A stretch of DNA of 64,000 nucleotides, taken from positions 1,240,001-1,304,000 of the forward strand of contig NZ_CP049887.1 in assembly GCF_011304195.1 (NCBI RefSeq), written 5' to 3'. Source of the DNA: Vagococcus hydrophili. Lineage in GTDB: Bacteria > Bacillota > Bacilli > Lactobacillales > Vagococcaceae. The translations under genes and the position numbers were made by a program. This document shows, one piece after another, positions 37,488 through 49,306 of this stretch. Position 1 is the stretch's first letter, and each line of letters opens with the position of its first letter. Under the pieces are notes generated by a model that saw only the letters and a list, made by a program, of their open reading frames with translations, was not told the origin of the DNA and searched no databases.

Positions 37488-37555
37488 GCGAGACGAGATT
37501 AGTAAGCAAACAGAACACCAAAAAACCACCCTATGGCGATAGGGTGGTTTTTCTT
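37488..37555 (+). ncRNA. RNA II-like antitoxin RNA of a par/Fst locus
   Basis: A predicted RNA of about 66 bases from the TATAAT at 37476 to the shared terminator. It carries ACGAGATTA (37493-37501) and CAAACAGAA (37507-37515). Both recur in the toxin leader region (37671-37679 and 37690-37698), in the arrangement of the direct repeats DRa/DRb of plasmid pAD1 par. Convergent with the toxin mRNA and sharing its 3' terminator. Size and layout match RNA II (about 65 bases). Confidence 0.72.
37520..37555. terminator. Shared bidirectional terminator of the par/Fst locus
   Basis: 13-bp stem AAAACCACCCTAT/ATAGGGTGGTTTT with loop GGCG, with A and T runs on the two sides. It ends both the antitoxin RNA (+) and the toxin mRNA (-). 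Confidence 0.92.
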
Positions 37556-37605
37556 TTCACTGGTGCGAATCAGCGTTGGGTTAGTAGCAACTATTTGAAT
37601 ACCGT

Positions 37606-37692
37606 CTAGTCATCTAACTTCTGACTAATCCATAATAATATGAGTCCCACTAAAAGTGGTGCGATAAACAACGAGATTATTTGATCAAACAA
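37606..37692 (-). CDS. Fst-family type I toxin peptide
   Basis: A 28-residue hydrophobic peptide, too short for usual gene calling. The core SLFIAPLLVGLILLWISQKL matches the Fst consensus (LxIAPxxVGLxLxxIS, then acidic residues) and it ends LDD. It should insert in the membrane and be toxic when unpaired from its antitoxin RNA. The start is TTG at 37692, 8 bases after AAAGGGGG. That site can pair with upstream CCCTT to form a 5' stem, as in the Fst mRNA. The mRNA predicted from the extended -10 at 37729-37734 to the shared terminator is about 200 bases, the size of pAD1 RNA I. Confidence 0.85.
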   Translation of the reverse strand: MFDQIISLFIAPLLVGLILLWISQKLDD

Positions 37693-37728
37693 ACAGAATA
37701 CCCCCTTTAAGGGCAGTTGCCAATAATA

Positions 37729-42507: not shown

Positions 42508-43620
42508 ATGAATCTATCAGTGACTATGAAAAAGTATCAAGTGGTAGGTATCATTATTATGGTTAGCTTTATTTTAGTTTTACCTCAGTTAATACTTAAA
42601 AACATGATCATAGGTTCAGATGCTCTATTTCACTTCAATCGTCTGTACGATACATCTCAACAAATCAAGGAAGGGAACTTTCAACCATTCATTTCAATGT
42701 ATGGCTATCAACAATCAGGACGTGTTGTCACGCCTATTTACGCTCTGATACTATCATACATATTGGGTGCGTTACTTTTAATCTGTGGTAATTGGTTTAT
42801 TTTTCAAATGGTTAGTAACTTTTGTCTTTTTTTACTCTCAGGAATATCGATGTATGCACTTTTAAGAAAAATGGAAGTCCAACAAAGAACGTGTGTGGAA
42901 CTAAGTTTGTTTTTCATGACGACCTATTCAATATCTTATTGGGTTATTAGACAAGGTTTTTCTAGTTGGGCAGGAGAATTATTACCACTGTGCCTAATAC
43001 CAGTAGTAACCATGTTTAAAGACAATAAATATCAACCAATTAGCGTGGCATTATCACTAGCGGTGATGTTTCAAACCCATTTTTTGACGAGAATCTTTCT
43101 TTTATTTTTTTATAGTATAGCTTTTATATATCAACTAATTAAGAATAGTCATAGACTAAAATTGATACGACAACTAGTTACTTCAATGGTTATTTTTTTC
43201 TTTTTAACAAGTAATATCTGGTATGCCTTACGGTGGCTTTATGGTAATAATAAAATTCTACCCCCATTTCAAAATACCGCAATGTTTGAACAAACGATAA
43301 CAAAAGCAAGTTGGTATTGGTTAATCAATCCTTTTATTCTTCCGTTAATGATTCTTTTCTTATTATTTACCCTCATTACACGGTTTCGTAAAATGTCAGA
43401 TTTAAACAAATATTTTAGCTTAATGTCTTTGTTCTTCTTTTTTCTATCTTCAAATTTTTTTCCATGGCGCTTTTTATCGACATTAGATATATCTTTAATT
43501 AAAGTCATTCAATTTCCGTTTCGTTTTTTTATACCTGGAACGGTGTGTTTAATCTGTAGTGTTGGATTAACGCTGTTAGAAAAATTATATAGAGTAAAAG
43601 TTAAAAATTTTCAGTTTTGA
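42508..43620 (+). CDS. PTPS-related polytopic membrane protein, N-terminal part (frame ends early)
   Basis: A 370-residue protein with about ten hydrophobic helices. It starts like the large 6-pyruvoyl-tetrahydropterin-synthase-related membrane proteins of Lactobacillales (FILVLPQLILKNMIIGSDALFHFNRLYD), written here in part as NMIIGSDALFHFNRLYD. Those proteins are usually about 530-600 residues. This frame stops at TGA 43618-43620, and the missing C-terminal part follows directly in the -1 frame (43617-44099). It may be a frameshifted gene or a protein made in two pieces. It continues the ECF-sigma operon after a 34-base gap. GAGGAGGAGTAA before the ATG is complementary to the loop of the small RNAs at 44112-45790. 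Confidence 0.72.
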   Translation: MNLSVTMKKYQVVGIIIMVSFILVLPQLILKNMIIGSDALFHFNRLYDTSQQIKEGNFQPFISMYGYQQSGRVVTPIYALILSYILGALLLICGNWFIFQMVSNFCLFLLSGISMYALLRKMEVQQRTCVELSLFFMTTYSISYWVIRQGFSSWAGELLPLCLIPVVTMFKDNKYQPISVALSLAVMFQTHFLTRIFLLFFYSIAFIYQLIKNSHRLKLIRQLVTSMVIFFFLTSNIWYALRWLYGNNKILPPFQNTAMFEQTITKASWYWLINPFILPLMILFLLFTLITRFRKMSDLNKYFSLMSLFFFFLSSNFFPWRFLSTLDISLIKVIQFPFRFFIPGTVCLICSVGLTLLEKLYRVKVKNFQF

Positions 43621-44099
43621 TAGGAGCTTGTATTGTTCATAGTTTATTTTTATATGGAGATGCTTTGAAAGAGTGGGATGATCCAAAGTTATTCATTCAA
43701 TCAGGAAGTCATGTTGTGATTCATTCGGAGGATGTTGATGAAGTGAAACAATCTTTTTATCAGAAAGACTTAAAAAAATCTCTGGTACTCGTTGAAAAAT
43801 CGACTCCCGATTATTTACCAGTATATAGGGATTCTCAGGAAAACAACTATCAACTTTATGAGAAAGTTTTCTTTAATCAAAAAAATAAATTTAGTAAGAC
43901 AGTAAAAAATCACCAATTGGTTGTAGAGTGGCAAGGGAAAGAGAATGAAGAAGTCATTGTTCCAGTCGTTAAGTATGCTCGGACAACAATAATTTATAAT
44001 AATCAAAAACTAGAAAAGCCTAAATTAACAGTGTTAGGTAGTCCAATTGTTAAGAGTAGAAAAGGAGCCAATGAATTGATTTTGTATGGTGATTATTAA
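43617..44099 (+). pseudogene. C-terminal part of the PTPS-related membrane protein, -1 frame
   Basis: A 160-residue frame that opens with TTG overlapping the TGA of the previous gene (TTGA). It begins with a hydrophobic helix (IGACIVHSLFLYG) that reads as the missing last helix of the upstream protein, followed by a soluble beta-rich tail. No ribosome site is seen. The fused product would be about 530 residues, the normal family size. Possible explanations are a recent frameshift, a sequencing error in AATTTTCAGTTTTGA, programmed -1 frameshifting or stop-start reinitiation. Confidence 0.6.
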
Positions 44100-44115
44100 T
44101 AATCACCATACAAAA
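44080..44115. terminator. Perfect 36-bp palindrome at the end of the sigma operon
   Basis: 18-bp arms with no loop (TTTTGTATGGTGATTATT and its exact complement). It contains the stop codon of the frame ending at 44099. It probably ends the operon in the plus direction, though only four A follow in place of a T-run. Confidence 0.6.
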
Positions 44116-44209
44116 ATGCAACCAGCCTAAATGCTGATTGCTAAAAAGGAGTTGTTTATTTACTTTGGAGGAGTAAATAAATGAAAAAGTTTGTTAGGGT
44201 TGTTTTGTT
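44112..44209 (-). ncRNA. Small RNA, family copy A
   Basis: A predicted minus-strand RNA of about 98 bases. Promoter TTAACA (44243-44238), 16 bases, TATATG (44221-44216). The 3' end is a 9-bp hairpin (GCAATCAGC/GCTGGTTGC) followed by ATTTTTG. The body is nearly free of G and holds a hairpin TTTATTTAC-(TCCTCCAAA)-GTAAATAAA whose loop is complementary to Shine-Dalgarno sequences. On the plus strand the same DNA reads as an SD site and a 17-codon frame, which I regard as a by-product. Confidence 0.65.
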
Positions 44210-44234
44210 GGTATACATATATAATAACTTCTAG
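44181..44234 (+). CDS. 17-codon frame opposite small RNA copy A (doubtful)
   Basis: ATG with GGAGGAG 9 bases upstream, encoding MKKFVRVVLLVYIYNNF. The first 13 codons are almost the same in all three copies, and the end varies exactly where the minus-strand promoter spacer lies. That favours conservation for the RNA over coding. A short hydrophobic peptide silenced by the antisense RNA cannot be excluded. Confidence 0.2.
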   Translation: MKKFVRVVLLVYIYNNF

Positions 44235-44237
44235 ATG

Positions 44238-44297
44238 TGTTAAAAGTGTGATGAAATTGTTCTAAAGTAAGAAGTTTTTTTAAAGGAATTCTTAAGA
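44238..44297 (-). promoter_or_regulatory. Conserved upstream control region of small RNA copy A
   Basis: About 55 bases upstream of the -35 are conserved with copies B and C, including TCTTAAGAATTCCTTTAA at the distal end. Such conservation beyond the -35 suggests an activator site, possibly of an OmpR-type regulator. Confidence 0.5.
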
Positions 44298-44390
44298 TGA
44301 ACTCACATGACAAGTTTGTAAGTTTTATCAATGTTAGTCGTAAGTTGGAGTTGGTAAAATGTAACCAACATTAACTAGGAGAGATGAACG

Positions 44391-44786
44391 ATGAAAAAGA
44401 TAATCCCAATTATATTACTGATTGTTGCAGGTTTTATTGGATACAAAGGCTATACTTACTATAACGACACATATAAGGCAACGACAGCTTATGCTCTTGT
44501 GCCTGAAGTACCAGAGAAGAAAGAAGCTCGGGATGACAGTAACAGACCAATCAAAGATGAAGATGGTTCAATTAATTATACTTACGACTATTCTTTTAAC
44601 TTTATCAAAAAAGACGGTACAAAGCAGACACAAGATTTTGGTTTAACTGGATCGAATGCAGAACCTTATGAACCAGGTACTTATGTGACAGCTGAAATAT
44701 CGAATAAACGTGTTGTTAAGGGACCTTATACAGTAAAAGAAGATCAAATCCCTAAAGAGATATTAGCTCAATTAAAAGGAAAATAA
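44391..44786 (+). CDS. YxeA-family (DUF1093) protein
   Basis: A 131-residue protein with an N-terminal hydrophobic signal/anchor (IIPIILLIVAGFIGYKGY) and an external OB-like domain (YDYSFNFIKKDGTKQTQDFGL, given in part). It matches the YxeA family of small exported proteins of unknown function. TAGGAGAG precedes the ATG. It lies between small RNA copies A and B on the opposite strand. A bidirectional hairpin terminator follows at 44866. Confidence 0.8.
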   Translation: MKKIIPIILLIVAGFIGYKGYTYYNDTYKATTAYALVPEVPEKKEARDDSNRPIKDEDGSINYTYDYSFNFIKKDGTKQTQDFGLTGSNAEPYEPGTYVTAEISNKRVVKGPYTVKEDQIPKEILAQLKGK

Positions 44787-44865
44787 CTATTTATAGGTGA
44801 CATTGAGAAAACATTTTTTTGTCAGAAAAAATAAAAAATTACCCAAATAGTGCGATATAAAGAAA

Positions 44866-44915
44866 AAAACCTTCTTTAGATATTCCAAAATGGAATAGCA
44901 AAGAAGGTCTTTTTA
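44866..44915. terminator. Bidirectional terminator after yxeA-like gene
   Basis: Stems CCTTCTTT/AAAGAAGG and TATTCC/TGGAATA with loop AAAA. A-run on the left, TTTTT on the right. Confidence 0.85.
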
Positions 44916-44932
44916 TTGTGTAATCCTTAAAT

Positions 44933-45032
44933 AAAAAAAAGAGGCGGACATTTAAGTCAGCCTCTAAAAAGGAGTTGTTTATTTACTTTGGAGGAGTAAA
45001 TAAATGAAAAAGTTTGTTAGGGTTGTTTTGTT
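44933..45032 (-). ncRNA. Small RNA, family copy B
   Basis: A predicted minus-strand RNA of about 100 bases. Promoter TTGACA (45066-45061), 16 bases, TATATG (45044-45039), the best of the three. It ends with AGAGGCTGA/TCCGCCTCT and eight T. Same G-poor body and TCCTCC loop hairpin as copy A. Confidence 0.7.
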
Positions 45033-45057
45033 GGTATACATATATAATAGCGCGTAG
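45004..45057 (+). CDS. 17-codon frame opposite small RNA copy B (doubtful)
   Basis: ATG with GGAGGAG upstream, encoding MKKFVRVVLLVYIYNSA. See the copy A frame for why coding is doubted. Confidence 0.2.
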   Translation: MKKFVRVVLLVYIYNSA

Positions 45058-45060
45058 ATA

Positions 45061-45121
45061 TGTCAAAAGTGTGATGAAATTGTTTTAAAGTAAGAAGTTT
45101 TCTTAAAGGAATTCTTAAGAT
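45061..45121 (-). promoter_or_regulatory. Conserved upstream control region of small RNA copy B
   Basis: Conserved from the -35 to TCTTAAGAATTCCTTTAAG, close to the stop codon of the VOC gene. Confidence 0.5.
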
Positions 45122-45127
45122 AGAAAC

Positions 45128-45508
45128 TTATTTAACTTCCATCACGGCAAAATAATTATTTTCATTATCAGCAAAGTTAAAGACGCGACCAGTGGGCATA
45201 GGCACGATGTCACCTAAAGTTACTTGCTTATTACCTAGTTCTTGATAGAAGGCGTCAAAATCATCTGAATAAAACATTAACGAGGGTGTACCTAAGTTTA
45301 ATTCAGGAGACATTTTTTCGATTATTTTTTTATCATGTAAAACGATGCTTGTTTCAGACGTTTGAGAAGGGGTGATTTCAAACCATTTCATACCGTGTTC
45401 GTTACTTACTTCTGCTAAAAGTTTAAAACCTAATTTTTCCGTCCAAAAATTTTTTGCTTCTTCTTGATTGTTAACGTATAACATAATTTGTCCAATATTT
45501 TTTATCAT
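45128..45508 (-). CDS. VOC-family protein (glyoxalase/bleomycin-resistance fold)
   Basis: A 126-residue vicinal-oxygen-chelate protein with two beta-alpha-beta-beta-beta modules (IGQIMLYVNNQEEAKNFWTE and SLMFYSDDFDAFYQEL), ending NYFAVMEV. Substrate cannot be inferred; such proteins act as lyases, dioxygenases or antibiotic-binding proteins. AAAGGAG lies 8 bases before the ATG. Small RNA copy B lies just downstream on the same strand with its own promoter. Confidence 0.85.
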   Translation of the reverse strand: MIKNIGQIMLYVNNQEEAKNFWTEKLGFKLLAEVSNEHGMKWFEITPSQTSETSIVLHDKKIIEKMSPELNLGTPSLMFYSDDFDAFYQELGNKQVTLGDIVPMPTGRVFNFADNENNYFAVMEVK

Positions 45509-45620
45509 GGTGGTAACTCCTTTAAGTTGATAATTTTTTATAGTTGAAGTATAACTTTTTTAAGAGATAAAGACATGAATTTAGCTCAAAAATAGTTTGT
45601 TTAATCTATTAAATAAAAAC

Positions 45621-45720
45621 AAAAAAATAGAGGCTGAATTGAGTCAGCCTCTAAAAGGAGTTGTTTTATTTACTTTGGAGGAGTAAATAAAATGAAAAAG
45701 TTTGTTAGGGTTGTTTTGTT
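45621..45720 (-). ncRNA. Small RNA, family copy C
   Basis: A predicted minus-strand RNA of about 100 bases. Promoter TTAACA (45754-45749), 16 bases, TATATA (45732-45727). Terminator AGAGGCTGA/TCAGCCTCT followed by ATTTTTTTG. Its loop stem has 10 pairs (TTTTATTTAC/GTAAATAAAA): one base was added on each arm compared with copies A and B, a compensatory change that supports a real RNA structure. Confidence 0.7.
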
Positions 45721-45745
45721 GGTATGTATATATAATAGCGATTAA
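45692..45745 (+). CDS. 17-codon frame opposite small RNA copy C (doubtful)
   Basis: ATG with GGAGGAG upstream, encoding MKKFVRVVLLVCIYNSD. The Tyr-to-Cys change coincides with the minus-strand -10 changing from TATATG to TATATA. Confidence 0.2.
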   Translation: MKKFVRVVLLVCIYNSD

Positions 45746-45748
45746 ATG

Positions 45749-45810
45749 TGTTAAAAATGTGATGAAATTGTTCTAAAATAAGAATTTTTAATTAAGAAAT
45801 TATTAAGACT
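45749..45810 (-). promoter_or_regulatory. Conserved upstream control region of small RNA copy C
   Basis: On the minus strand it contains TCTTAA-TAATT-TCTTAA, a direct repeat with an 11-base period. This is the spacing used by OmpR-family response regulators. The repeat is less regular in copies A and B. Confidence 0.45.
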
Positions 45811-48913: not shown

Positions 48914-49306
48914 ATGAAAAAGTTTAAAATATTTATGGTAATTACGTTACTTCTTGTTTTATCTAGTTGTGGAATGAGTAAGGGGAAACAAGGCGAAGAA
49001 ATTCTTAATGCGAGTTTTGATTATGCCAATGAGCGTTATGATGAAAAAAATATGTTTACTAAGAAGAATACAAATGGATATGTGTATCAAGATGAGGACT
49101 ATTATTATGTTCAGTTAATTAATCAACAAGAGGAAGAAGATTCATACGGCAAGAAATCAATGATTGTGATTCATGATTTTTACCGTATAAAAAAACATGA
49201 CAAGTTCTCTGTATCTAAAGAAGATTTTGAAGTATATAACAATCGAGACGAAGTGGAAAGTAAACCATTTATCTATGATGAAGAAAATATAATTATTGAA
49301 GAATAA
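48914..49306 (+). CDS. Small lipoprotein, function unknown
   Basis: A 130-residue protein with a lipoprotein signal peptide: basic MKKFK, hydrophobic IFMVITLLLVL and lipobox LSSC at about residue 18-21. The mature part is charged and Tyr-rich with no known motif. AGAGGAG lies 9 bases before the ATG at 48914; an in-frame ATG at 48890 would place eight residues before the signal and is less likely. It should be anchored to the outer face of the membrane. Confidence 0.85.
   Translation: MKKFKIFMVITLLLVLSSCGMSKGKQGEEILNASFDYANERYDEKNMFTKKNTNGYVYQDEDYYYVQLINQQEEEDSYGKKSMIVIHDFYRIKKHDKFSVSKEDFEVYNNRDEVESKPFIYDEENIIIEE

Follow-up and report, generated by a model that had tools for sequence, protein, structure and literature searches.

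A 64,000-nucleotide stretch of the Vagococcus hydrophili genome (NCBI RefSeq assembly GCF_011304195.1, contig NZ_CP049887.1, positions 1,240,001 to 1,304,000; hereafter the window) carries three closely related elements on its minus strand, referred to here as copies A, B and C. These elements belong to a real and well-supported family of small RNAs (sRNAs), larger and older than the three-copy family that had been proposed from the letters of the window (the sequence-only reading). The genome contains at least ten copies; covariation supports their structure, they are homologous to the enterococcal RNA Ref84, their promoters share a conserved direct repeat, and the RNAs are complementary to translation start sites. 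Our reading, which we consider probable, is that each element encodes a trans-acting sRNA of about 100 nt, transcribed from a regulated promoter of its own, and that this at least ten-copy homologue of Ref84 blocks translation.

Copies A, B and C occupy positions 44112-44215, 44933-45038 and 45621-45726 of the minus strand, respectively, and each is about 104 nt long. The covariance model R1, built from the ten copies in this genome, three copies from V. fluvialis plasmids and one from Enterococcus faecalis, without any use of Ref84, scores them at 110.5 bits (A, called at 44111-44215), 110.3 bits (B) and 106.6 bits (C, called at 45622-45726). The T-run of the copy A terminator ends at 44112, and its 5′ end probably lies at about 44213-44215. 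The three elements form a single family of direct repeats of 158 nt, in which B and C are 95% and 75% identical to A in ungapped comparison, and their similarity extends upstream by about 80 bases, to about 44298, 45121 and 45809. Thus, the three related elements described in the sequence-only reading are indeed present, as is their nearly G-free body: each copy has a single G within its first 73 nt. The predicted folds have energies of -20.3 (A), -20.0 (B) and -23.1 kcal/mol (C), with z scores of -5.9, -6.7 and -8.7, and none of 200 shuffles was as stable as the real folds.

From its 5′ end, copy A consists of an A/C-rich leader (TATACCAACAAAACAACCCTAACAAA), CTTTTTCAT, a hairpin topped by CTCCTCC, AACTCCTTTT and an intrinsic terminator; B and C are nearly the same ahead of the terminator. 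The hairpin, supported by folding and by covariation over 104 distinct rows, has 10 pairs in A (44155-44181) and in B (44978-45004) and 11 pairs in C (45664-45692), with the same loop in all three; as had been noticed before, C has gained one base in each arm and hence one pair. In copy A, CUCCUCC lies at 44173-44167, with its CCUCC in the loop. The anti-Shine-Dalgarno hairpin thus folds as first described, except that the loop of the minimum-energy structure is the 7-nt CCUCCAA, and not 9 nt long, with CUCCUCC straddling the top two hairpin pairs. The terminator stem-loops of A (44118-44141), B (44940-44965, with one interruption) and C (45628-45653) differ in sequence, yet all three fold, in keeping with the earlier description, and all are supported by covariation; a simple terminator scan of the window listed A and C and not the interrupted stem of B. 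On its opposite side, the copy A terminator is abutted by a perfect 18-nt inverted repeat with no spacer (44080-44115), which spans the stop codon of a plus-strand frame at 43617-44099. This frame overlaps another at 42508-43620, and the two read like a single membrane protein gene that has been split; neither has a Pfam match.

The R1 alignment comprises 129 matches from 93 sources, in 104 distinct rows; the loci were chosen, redundant ones included, and the alignment leans to the model structure. Among 1766 pairing cells, 98.2% are paired, as compared with 73.6% in shuffles. Two-sided changes are found in 16 of the 18 pairs, including all 8 modelled terminator pairs, and the covariation score is 0.595, versus 0.142 for shuffles, and slid pairings do not exceed 0.087. 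The compensatory changes span five families. In hairpin-bearing rows ACUCCUCC is near-invariant while the arms change together (e.g., in L096), and CUCCUCC is nearly fixed. For the hairpin, the support consists of pair counts and individual folds.

R1 finds at least ten full-length copies in the V. hydrophili genome (E-value cut-off of 1, with 150 of 4684 candidates scored) and no further match at that cut-off; the earlier count of three therefore falls short, by these copies and by those on the three V. fluvialis plasmids. A blastn search with copy B returned the same ten sites with a body, along with shorter matches mostly to the copy B terminator. Mean identity among the ten copies is 0.96 for the hairpin and the stretch that follows it and 88% for the leader, as compared with 0.42 for the terminator stem-loops, a rough figure, as MAFFT partly misaligned the terminators. 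Because the body is near-identical while the terminators diverge, selection seems to hold the sRNA body while asking for no more than some kind of terminator. Beyond the window, the other seven copies lie in unrelated contexts.

A covariance search of relatives, as had been suggested along with the sequence-only reading, shows that the family is widespread. R1 detects copies in all 14 genomes of the genus, this one included (2-13 copies each), in 29 of 29 genomes and 8 of 8 genera of the GTDB family (1-16 copies), and, at E-values of 0.001 or below, in 99 of 295 genomes and 32 of 74 genera of the sampled order, i.e., in 70 of 266 genomes outside its own family. Since only part of the candidates was scored (13 per genome in the order search, and about 137-150 in the own-genome, genus, family, E. 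faecalis and Listeriaceae searches), the numbers given here, of copies as of genomes, are minimum values. Group names of relatives (Enterococcaceae, Trichococcus, Carnobacteriaceae, Listeriaceae) are deduced from sequence matches: L093 repeats the E. faecalis locus L019, a scan of named sequences gave 19 Trichococcus stretches and a Desemzia match (Carnobacteriaceae), and Listeriaceae are recognized by their LhrC. In at least three genomes, three to four sRNA genes stand in tandem with a period of 195-213 bp (195 or 212-213): L026 in G007, L030 in G011, and G009:C1:1472379-1473125. Three small V. fluvialis plasmids (4.5-10 kb) carry one copy each near their replication genes; these copies (L016:4969-5075, L017:1-106 and L018:4969-5075) are unannotated in the gene table and adjoin a gene for a helix-turn-helix protein. 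The aligned row of L028, from a 16-kb contig of a genus genome (G005), equals that of L017, so the same element is present in G005. A phage origin was considered and rejected: the apparent phage matches that were inspected (L020-L022; OR846706, OR846601 and OR846609) are filed under Enterococcus phage Efs 1-1-1 but consist of assembly contigs without annotation. Because L020 hardly differs from L019, a locus on a plasmid record of E. faecalis, the sRNA copies in these records are likely host DNA. A search of the 2-kb region of the window copies against phages gave no near match.

Two other readings of the elements can be weighed against these data. The plus strand might encode a small hydrophobic peptide of 17 amino acids (MKKFVRVVLLVYIYN...) behind GGAGG, with the minus-strand features as a by-product or as a cis-antisense RNA of a type I toxin-antitoxin system; a good plus-strand Shine-Dalgarno (SD) sequence and ATG do precede this frame in A, B and C, and related elements are carried by small plasmids. 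However, the complement of an anti-ribosome-binding site must resemble a ribosome-binding site, and the open reading frame, 17 codons long in the window copies, is not kept: 30 of the 104 distinct bodies have no SD and ATG by the pattern used, while the other 74 give frames of 3-63 codons, with frameshifts. It is on the minus strand that the covarying stems, the terminators and the promoter blocks are all found, a plus-strand promoter not having been sought family-wide. What was found is thus strong covariation and an unconserved plus-strand frame, rather than the codon-type substitution without covariation that had been named beforehand as the sign of a coding element. Because the stems covary and the plus-strand frame is not kept, we conclude that, as judged from the alignment, the conserved product is the minus-strand RNA; the micro-frame was rejected for its non-conservation across the 104 bodies, and the peptide explanation appears very unlikely. 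That the elements are a mobile repeat devoid of regulatory function, such as a miniature insertion element or a terminator-associated repeat, would agree with their scattered, unrelated contexts, their plasmid-borne copies and their tandem arrays. Against this, the flanks and terminators vary from copy to copy while body and promoter are kept, compensatory changes occur in five families, and the promoter architecture is fixed; target-site duplications were not searched for. We regard this explanation as extremely improbable, and retain that of an sRNA gene family.

The sequence-only reading knew of no description of such a family, but there is a described relative, Ref84 (RF02846). The Ref84 model scores copies A, B and C at 28.3, 26.7 and 29.2 bits, and six other copies of this genome at up to 43.4 bits, in each case below the gathering cut-off of 52 bits; one copy, L010, is not listed at E-values up to 10. 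Nine of the ten copies of this genome and the three plasmid copies align over the whole model (positions 1-87, library-wide E-values of 0.024-9.4), all of them short of the cut-off, and in these the Ref84 order of leader, hairpin, ACUCC stretch and terminator is kept. Conversely, R1 recovers the E. faecalis locus (G286) that scores 112.6 bits with Ref84, as well as four other loci above the Ref84 cut-off, at 61-80 bits (L105, two in L113, and L106). Because R1, which owes nothing to Ref84, recovers five loci that score above the Ref84 cut-off, we conclude by this sequence comparison that the window family is homologous to Ref84. E. faecalis sRNA_109 and E. faecium sRNA_093 are reported, in passages of Michaux 2020 (PMC7724050), to be similar to Ref84, and may be among the loci found here. 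No function and no multicopy description of Ref84 was found in the open-licence literature. The existence of this catalogued relative is already known, and what is new is the reach of the family, its copy number, its common promoter repeat and its complementarity to the whole start site. A second enterococcal sRNA family is present in the window, at 37553-37721 on the minus strand: Rfam RefB11 (RF02848, Enterococcus sRNA B11), at 89.3 bits versus a cut-off of 54.

The promoters were compared in 55 non-redundant upstream regions (similarity below 70% across 50 nt), with positions given relative to the model start. Two CAYA blocks 11 bp apart end at -32 and -21, with C at -35 in 39 regions and at -24 in 45; the second block is a full TTCAYA and the first a TCAYA. 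These are followed by TATWAT at -11 to -6. The information content is 0.35-1.7 bits in the block columns and 0.19-0.83 bits in the -10 columns, the 99.9% level of the null being 0.21 bits, which some other columns also exceed. When 105 distinct regions are considered, 48% match TTCAYA-N5-TTCAYA in at least 11 of 12 positions at a spacing of 11, as compared with 15% at the runner-up spacing of 14, and in 54 of them the best repeat match ends 20 nt ahead of the model start. In copies A, B and C, the probable -10 element (TATTAT in copy A) lies at 44221-44226, 45044-45049 and 45732-45737, and a diverged direct repeat (ATCACA-N5-AACACA in copy A, and similar in B and C) at 44236-44252, 45059-45075 and 45747-45763. 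The sequence-only reading had proposed sigma-70 hexamers, TTRACA and TATATR, 16 bp apart. These can be read in all three copies approximately where they were placed; however, a generic promoter scan did not list them, and they were probably mis-assigned. The better description of the promoter appears to be a -10 TATWAT with an 11-bp direct repeat in lieu of a -35 element. Replacement of the -35 element by a direct repeat is the mode of OmpR/PhoB-type regulators, and a pair of direct half-sites with this 11-bp spacing is present here where the -35 element would be, as in OmpR-type response-regulator regulons. An OmpR-type protein may bind this repeat.

The exact repeat occurs 8 times in the V. 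hydrophili genome, versus 3 times for a reversed control. These matches include copy L010 and positions ahead of a gene for a secreted beta-lactamase-fold protein (L165, PF00144) and of a gene for an FtsX-like permease (L170); the remaining five are within genes, behind them or far ahead of them. In six other genomes the counts for repeat and control are 12 and 1 (G019), 9 and 2 (G026), 9 and 2 (G057), 4 and 2 (G081), 3 and 3 (G105), and 2 and 4 (G286, E. faecalis). A gene pair led by the repeat, encoding a short permease-like protein and then, by eye, a degenerate ATPase-like protein, is found in this genome (L170), in E. faecalis (L207) and in two Carnobacteriaceae-like genomes (L200 and L205). 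Of these four loci, Pfam recognizes FtsX in L205 and L170 but in neither of the others; among the second genes, that of L170 was searched and has no Pfam match. In the V. hydrophili and E. faecalis genomes the pair follows a gene whose product resembles an LtaS-type enzyme. These neighbors hint at a link between the repeat and an envelope regulon. Elsewhere, genes for a histidine kinase and an OmpR-type regulator (Pfam HATPase_c, HisKA and Trans_reg_C; L004:1656-3110, minus strand) lie tail-to-tail with sRNA copy V4; nothing ties this pair to the repeat.

The complementarity of the loop to ribosome sites, noted in the sequence-only reading, is present and reaches beyond the SD to the start codon and the first codons. 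That is, CUUUUUCAU...CUCCUCC is the complement of a complete translation start, SD-AUG-AAA-AAG; read backwards, the sRNA is the complement of GGAGGAGUAAAUAAAAUGAAAAAGUUUGUU, which comprises an SD, a spacer, AUG and Lys-Lys-Phe codons. Of 102 distinct rows, 79 have a CAU 3-16 nt ahead of their first CUCC-like motif, as compared with 30.6 in shuffles (maximum 42 in 200 shuffles). Targets were predicted among 379 genes from 464 kb of the V. hydrophili genome, window included; frames of at least 80 codons with an SD-like motif were kept and others dropped, and exported classes (signal-peptide or membrane N-terminus) were assigned by a simple hydrophobicity rule. The real RNA pairs better with these start regions than ten shuffled RNAs do, with class means of -18.5 to -15.5 versus -11.4 to -13.6. 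The best predicted target of the 379 is a lipoprotein-like gene (MKKFKIFMVITLLLVLSSCG..., 48914-49306, plus strand, no Pfam match), about 3 kb from the sRNA copies; its predicted duplex with the copy C body has an energy of -31.3 kcal/mol. For the full-length copies A, B and C the duplex energies are -30.1, -30.1 and -31.8 kcal/mol, and the cofold gain is about -20 kcal/mol; in all three, the SD takes part in 6-8 pairs, and the AUG together with codons 2-4 in 14-15. Exported or membrane N-termini are found in 4 of the 5 best targets (p 0.0035) and 8 of the 20 best (p 0.011), against a background of 65 in 379, with five rank cut-offs inspected without correction.

In the mechanism that we propose, an OmpR-family response regulator, probably one of envelope stress, would bind the direct repeat TTCAYA-N5-TTCAYA that replaces the -35 element, and up to ten promoters would be activated together. 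The resulting RNA would present an unpaired A/C-rich leader, CUUUUUCAU, the hairpin with CCUCC in its loop, a second single-stranded ACUCC and the terminator. The exposed CCUCC loop would touch the SD of the target first, upon which pairing would spread through the 5′ arm of the hairpin and the leader to the spacer, the AUG and the opening codons (AAA AAG). Ribosome loading would be blocked by this duplex over the start, probably with no need for Hfq, a protein absent from E. faecalis and E. faecium according to passages of PMC10117718. The mRNAs hit hardest would be those of exported proteins that start with Met-Lys-Lys after a strong SD. We put forward tentatively, as an idea that may well not hold, that Ref84, the Vagococcus RNAs and LhrC of Listeria all belong, as separate branches, to a single envelope-stress module spanning the order, in which an RNA complementary to the idealized start of an exported protein (SD, spacer, AUG, AAA AAG) represses the secretome as a class, and not single genes, with a strength tuned by copy number (1-16), plasmid copies included. 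If the exported-protein reading is true, this would be a simple means to lower the secretory load under envelope stress. In any case, a catalogued, functionless enterococcal RNA is seen here to be one visible tip of a multicopy family of Vagococcus, Enterococcus, Trichococcus and Carnobacteriaceae-like genomes, whose common promoter code and readable pairing logic make testable both the function of Ref84-type RNAs and the question of why Gram-positives keep many near-identical copies.

Several observations weigh against parts of this reading. That the RNAs are transcribed in V. hydrophili, under such a regulator and signal, and that they repress translation of their targets, is what we infer from the anatomy of the elements. 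When run freely on the gappy alignment, RNAalifold recovered the terminator and not the hairpin. Twenty-three of the 102 rows lack the CAU, and 14 of these are Trichococcus-like. Taken over all 379 genes, the preference for exported proteins is not significant (p 0.059), nor is it for lipoproteins (p 0.12), MKK/MKR starts (p 0.083) or the top 40 (p 0.058). The lipoprotein at 48914-49306, the single gene examined in this way, is matched in 4 of the 14 genus genomes, its own included, and closely in just one other, in whose start region the pairing is, by eye, kept in part. Regarding the promoter, the leading T of the first half-site is not conserved family-wide, and the window copies fit TTCAYA-N5-TTCAYA in just 9 of 12 positions, as compared with 12 of 12 for L010. 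In two of the six other genomes (G286 and G105) the repeat is no more frequent than its reversed control, and 10 of the 30 exact matches inspected in these six lie inside long frames, while some matches are sRNA copies themselves. Lastly, in the search for the regulator no two-component operon was seen behind the exact repeat at the seven matches of this genome beside L010 and at 30 of the 39 others, with Pfam run on few frames.

Two further alternatives concern how the RNA acts and where it comes from. Its complementarity is to generic start regions, and all sampled gene classes gain over shuffled RNA, as would be expected if the sRNA acted mainly on translation in general, or by titrating a protein, and not on particular mRNAs. 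We consider this improbable, as the CUCCUCC loop would pair with the SD of an mRNA and not with the anti-SD of 16S rRNA, and so could not hold 30S subunits directly; moreover, the conserved CAU and CUUUUU point to mRNA starts, and the LhrC precedent is mRNA-specific. As to origin, the sRNA may be a bona fide divergent LhrC, i.e., Ref84-type RNAs and LhrC would descend from one ancestor and be run by LisR orthologues, which we hold to be possible, if rather doubtful. The layouts are collinear (A/C-rich leader, UUUUCAUU, CU-rich hairpin loop, AACUCC stretch, terminator), and both RNAs occur in arrays with a period of about 200 bp (203-204 bp for the LhrC array in G083). When a whole-family model, R2, is applied to 20 Listeria loci, the best 43 rows are all LhrC copies (E-values of 6e-5 to 0.04; the loci overlap, so that fewer are distinct), the best other row scoring 17.6 bits; in whole Listeriaceae genomes the three best rows are again LhrC copies. 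In turn, the LhrC model (RF00616) matches the family loci L070 (42.1 bits) and L114 (38.9 bits) and loci in G118 and G265 (E-values of about 0.005). However, in whole genomes R2 reaches marginal E-values, 0.0012 at best, and the majority of its rows are something other than LhrC, in a search that scored 150 of about 1,700-2,900 candidates per genome and left unreported the G035 copies given 36 bits elsewhere. The best matches of the LhrC model in G000 and G057 (E-values of about 0.004) are not family loci, and four of 14 control genomes yield matches to the model at E-values up to 1. Its scores for copies A, B and C are 23.4, 22.4 and 22.7 bits, versus a cut-off of 110, which no match in 12 genomes, this one included, exceeds. 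The UCCC motifs of LhrC, placed by passages of PMC4132741 in its loop, stretch and terminator loop, were sought in the window copies and none was found, CUCCUCC and CUCC being present instead; the conserved promoter motif of LhrC lies elsewhere, further upstream; and convergence could explain the common features. Membership in LhrC was not accepted, on account of the cut-off and the UCCC motif. Common descent of the two families is possible, the sequence evidence being suggestive only; the models cross-detect weakly, and the "analogy, not homology" of the sequence-only reading is to that extent in question.

The comparison with multicopy anti-SD sRNA families of the LhrC and csRNA kind, on the other hand, was apt. 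As LhrC1-5 are, the RNAs of this family are multicopy, found in tandem arrays and G-poor, with a CU-rich loop, a CU-rich single-stranded stretch and an intrinsic terminator; they differ in promoter layout, the conserved LhrC motif sitting further upstream. Passages of PMC4132741 describe LhrC as blocking the SD: it pairs with the SD region of lapB through its CU-rich sites, opens its own stem, and depends on LisRK, its LisR-responsive element lying upstream of -53. The streptococcal csRNAs are likewise small, multicopy and translation-inhibiting. Their model (RF02379) gives copy B 22.1 bits, against a cut-off of 57, and does not list A and C. The CiaR box is TTTAAG-N5-TTTAAG, which the repeat TTCAYA-N5-TTCAYA is not; with the cut-off unreached and no CiaR box, membership was rejected. 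The csRNAs are reported, in passages of PMC7602753, as members of the CiaRH regulon. The system closest to the Vagococcus copies is Ref84, with which they share the leader (UACCAAC..), the hairpin, the ACUCCUUUU stretch and the terminator, and from which they differ in a longer hairpin, topped by CUCCUCC, and in their greater number, ten in this genome.

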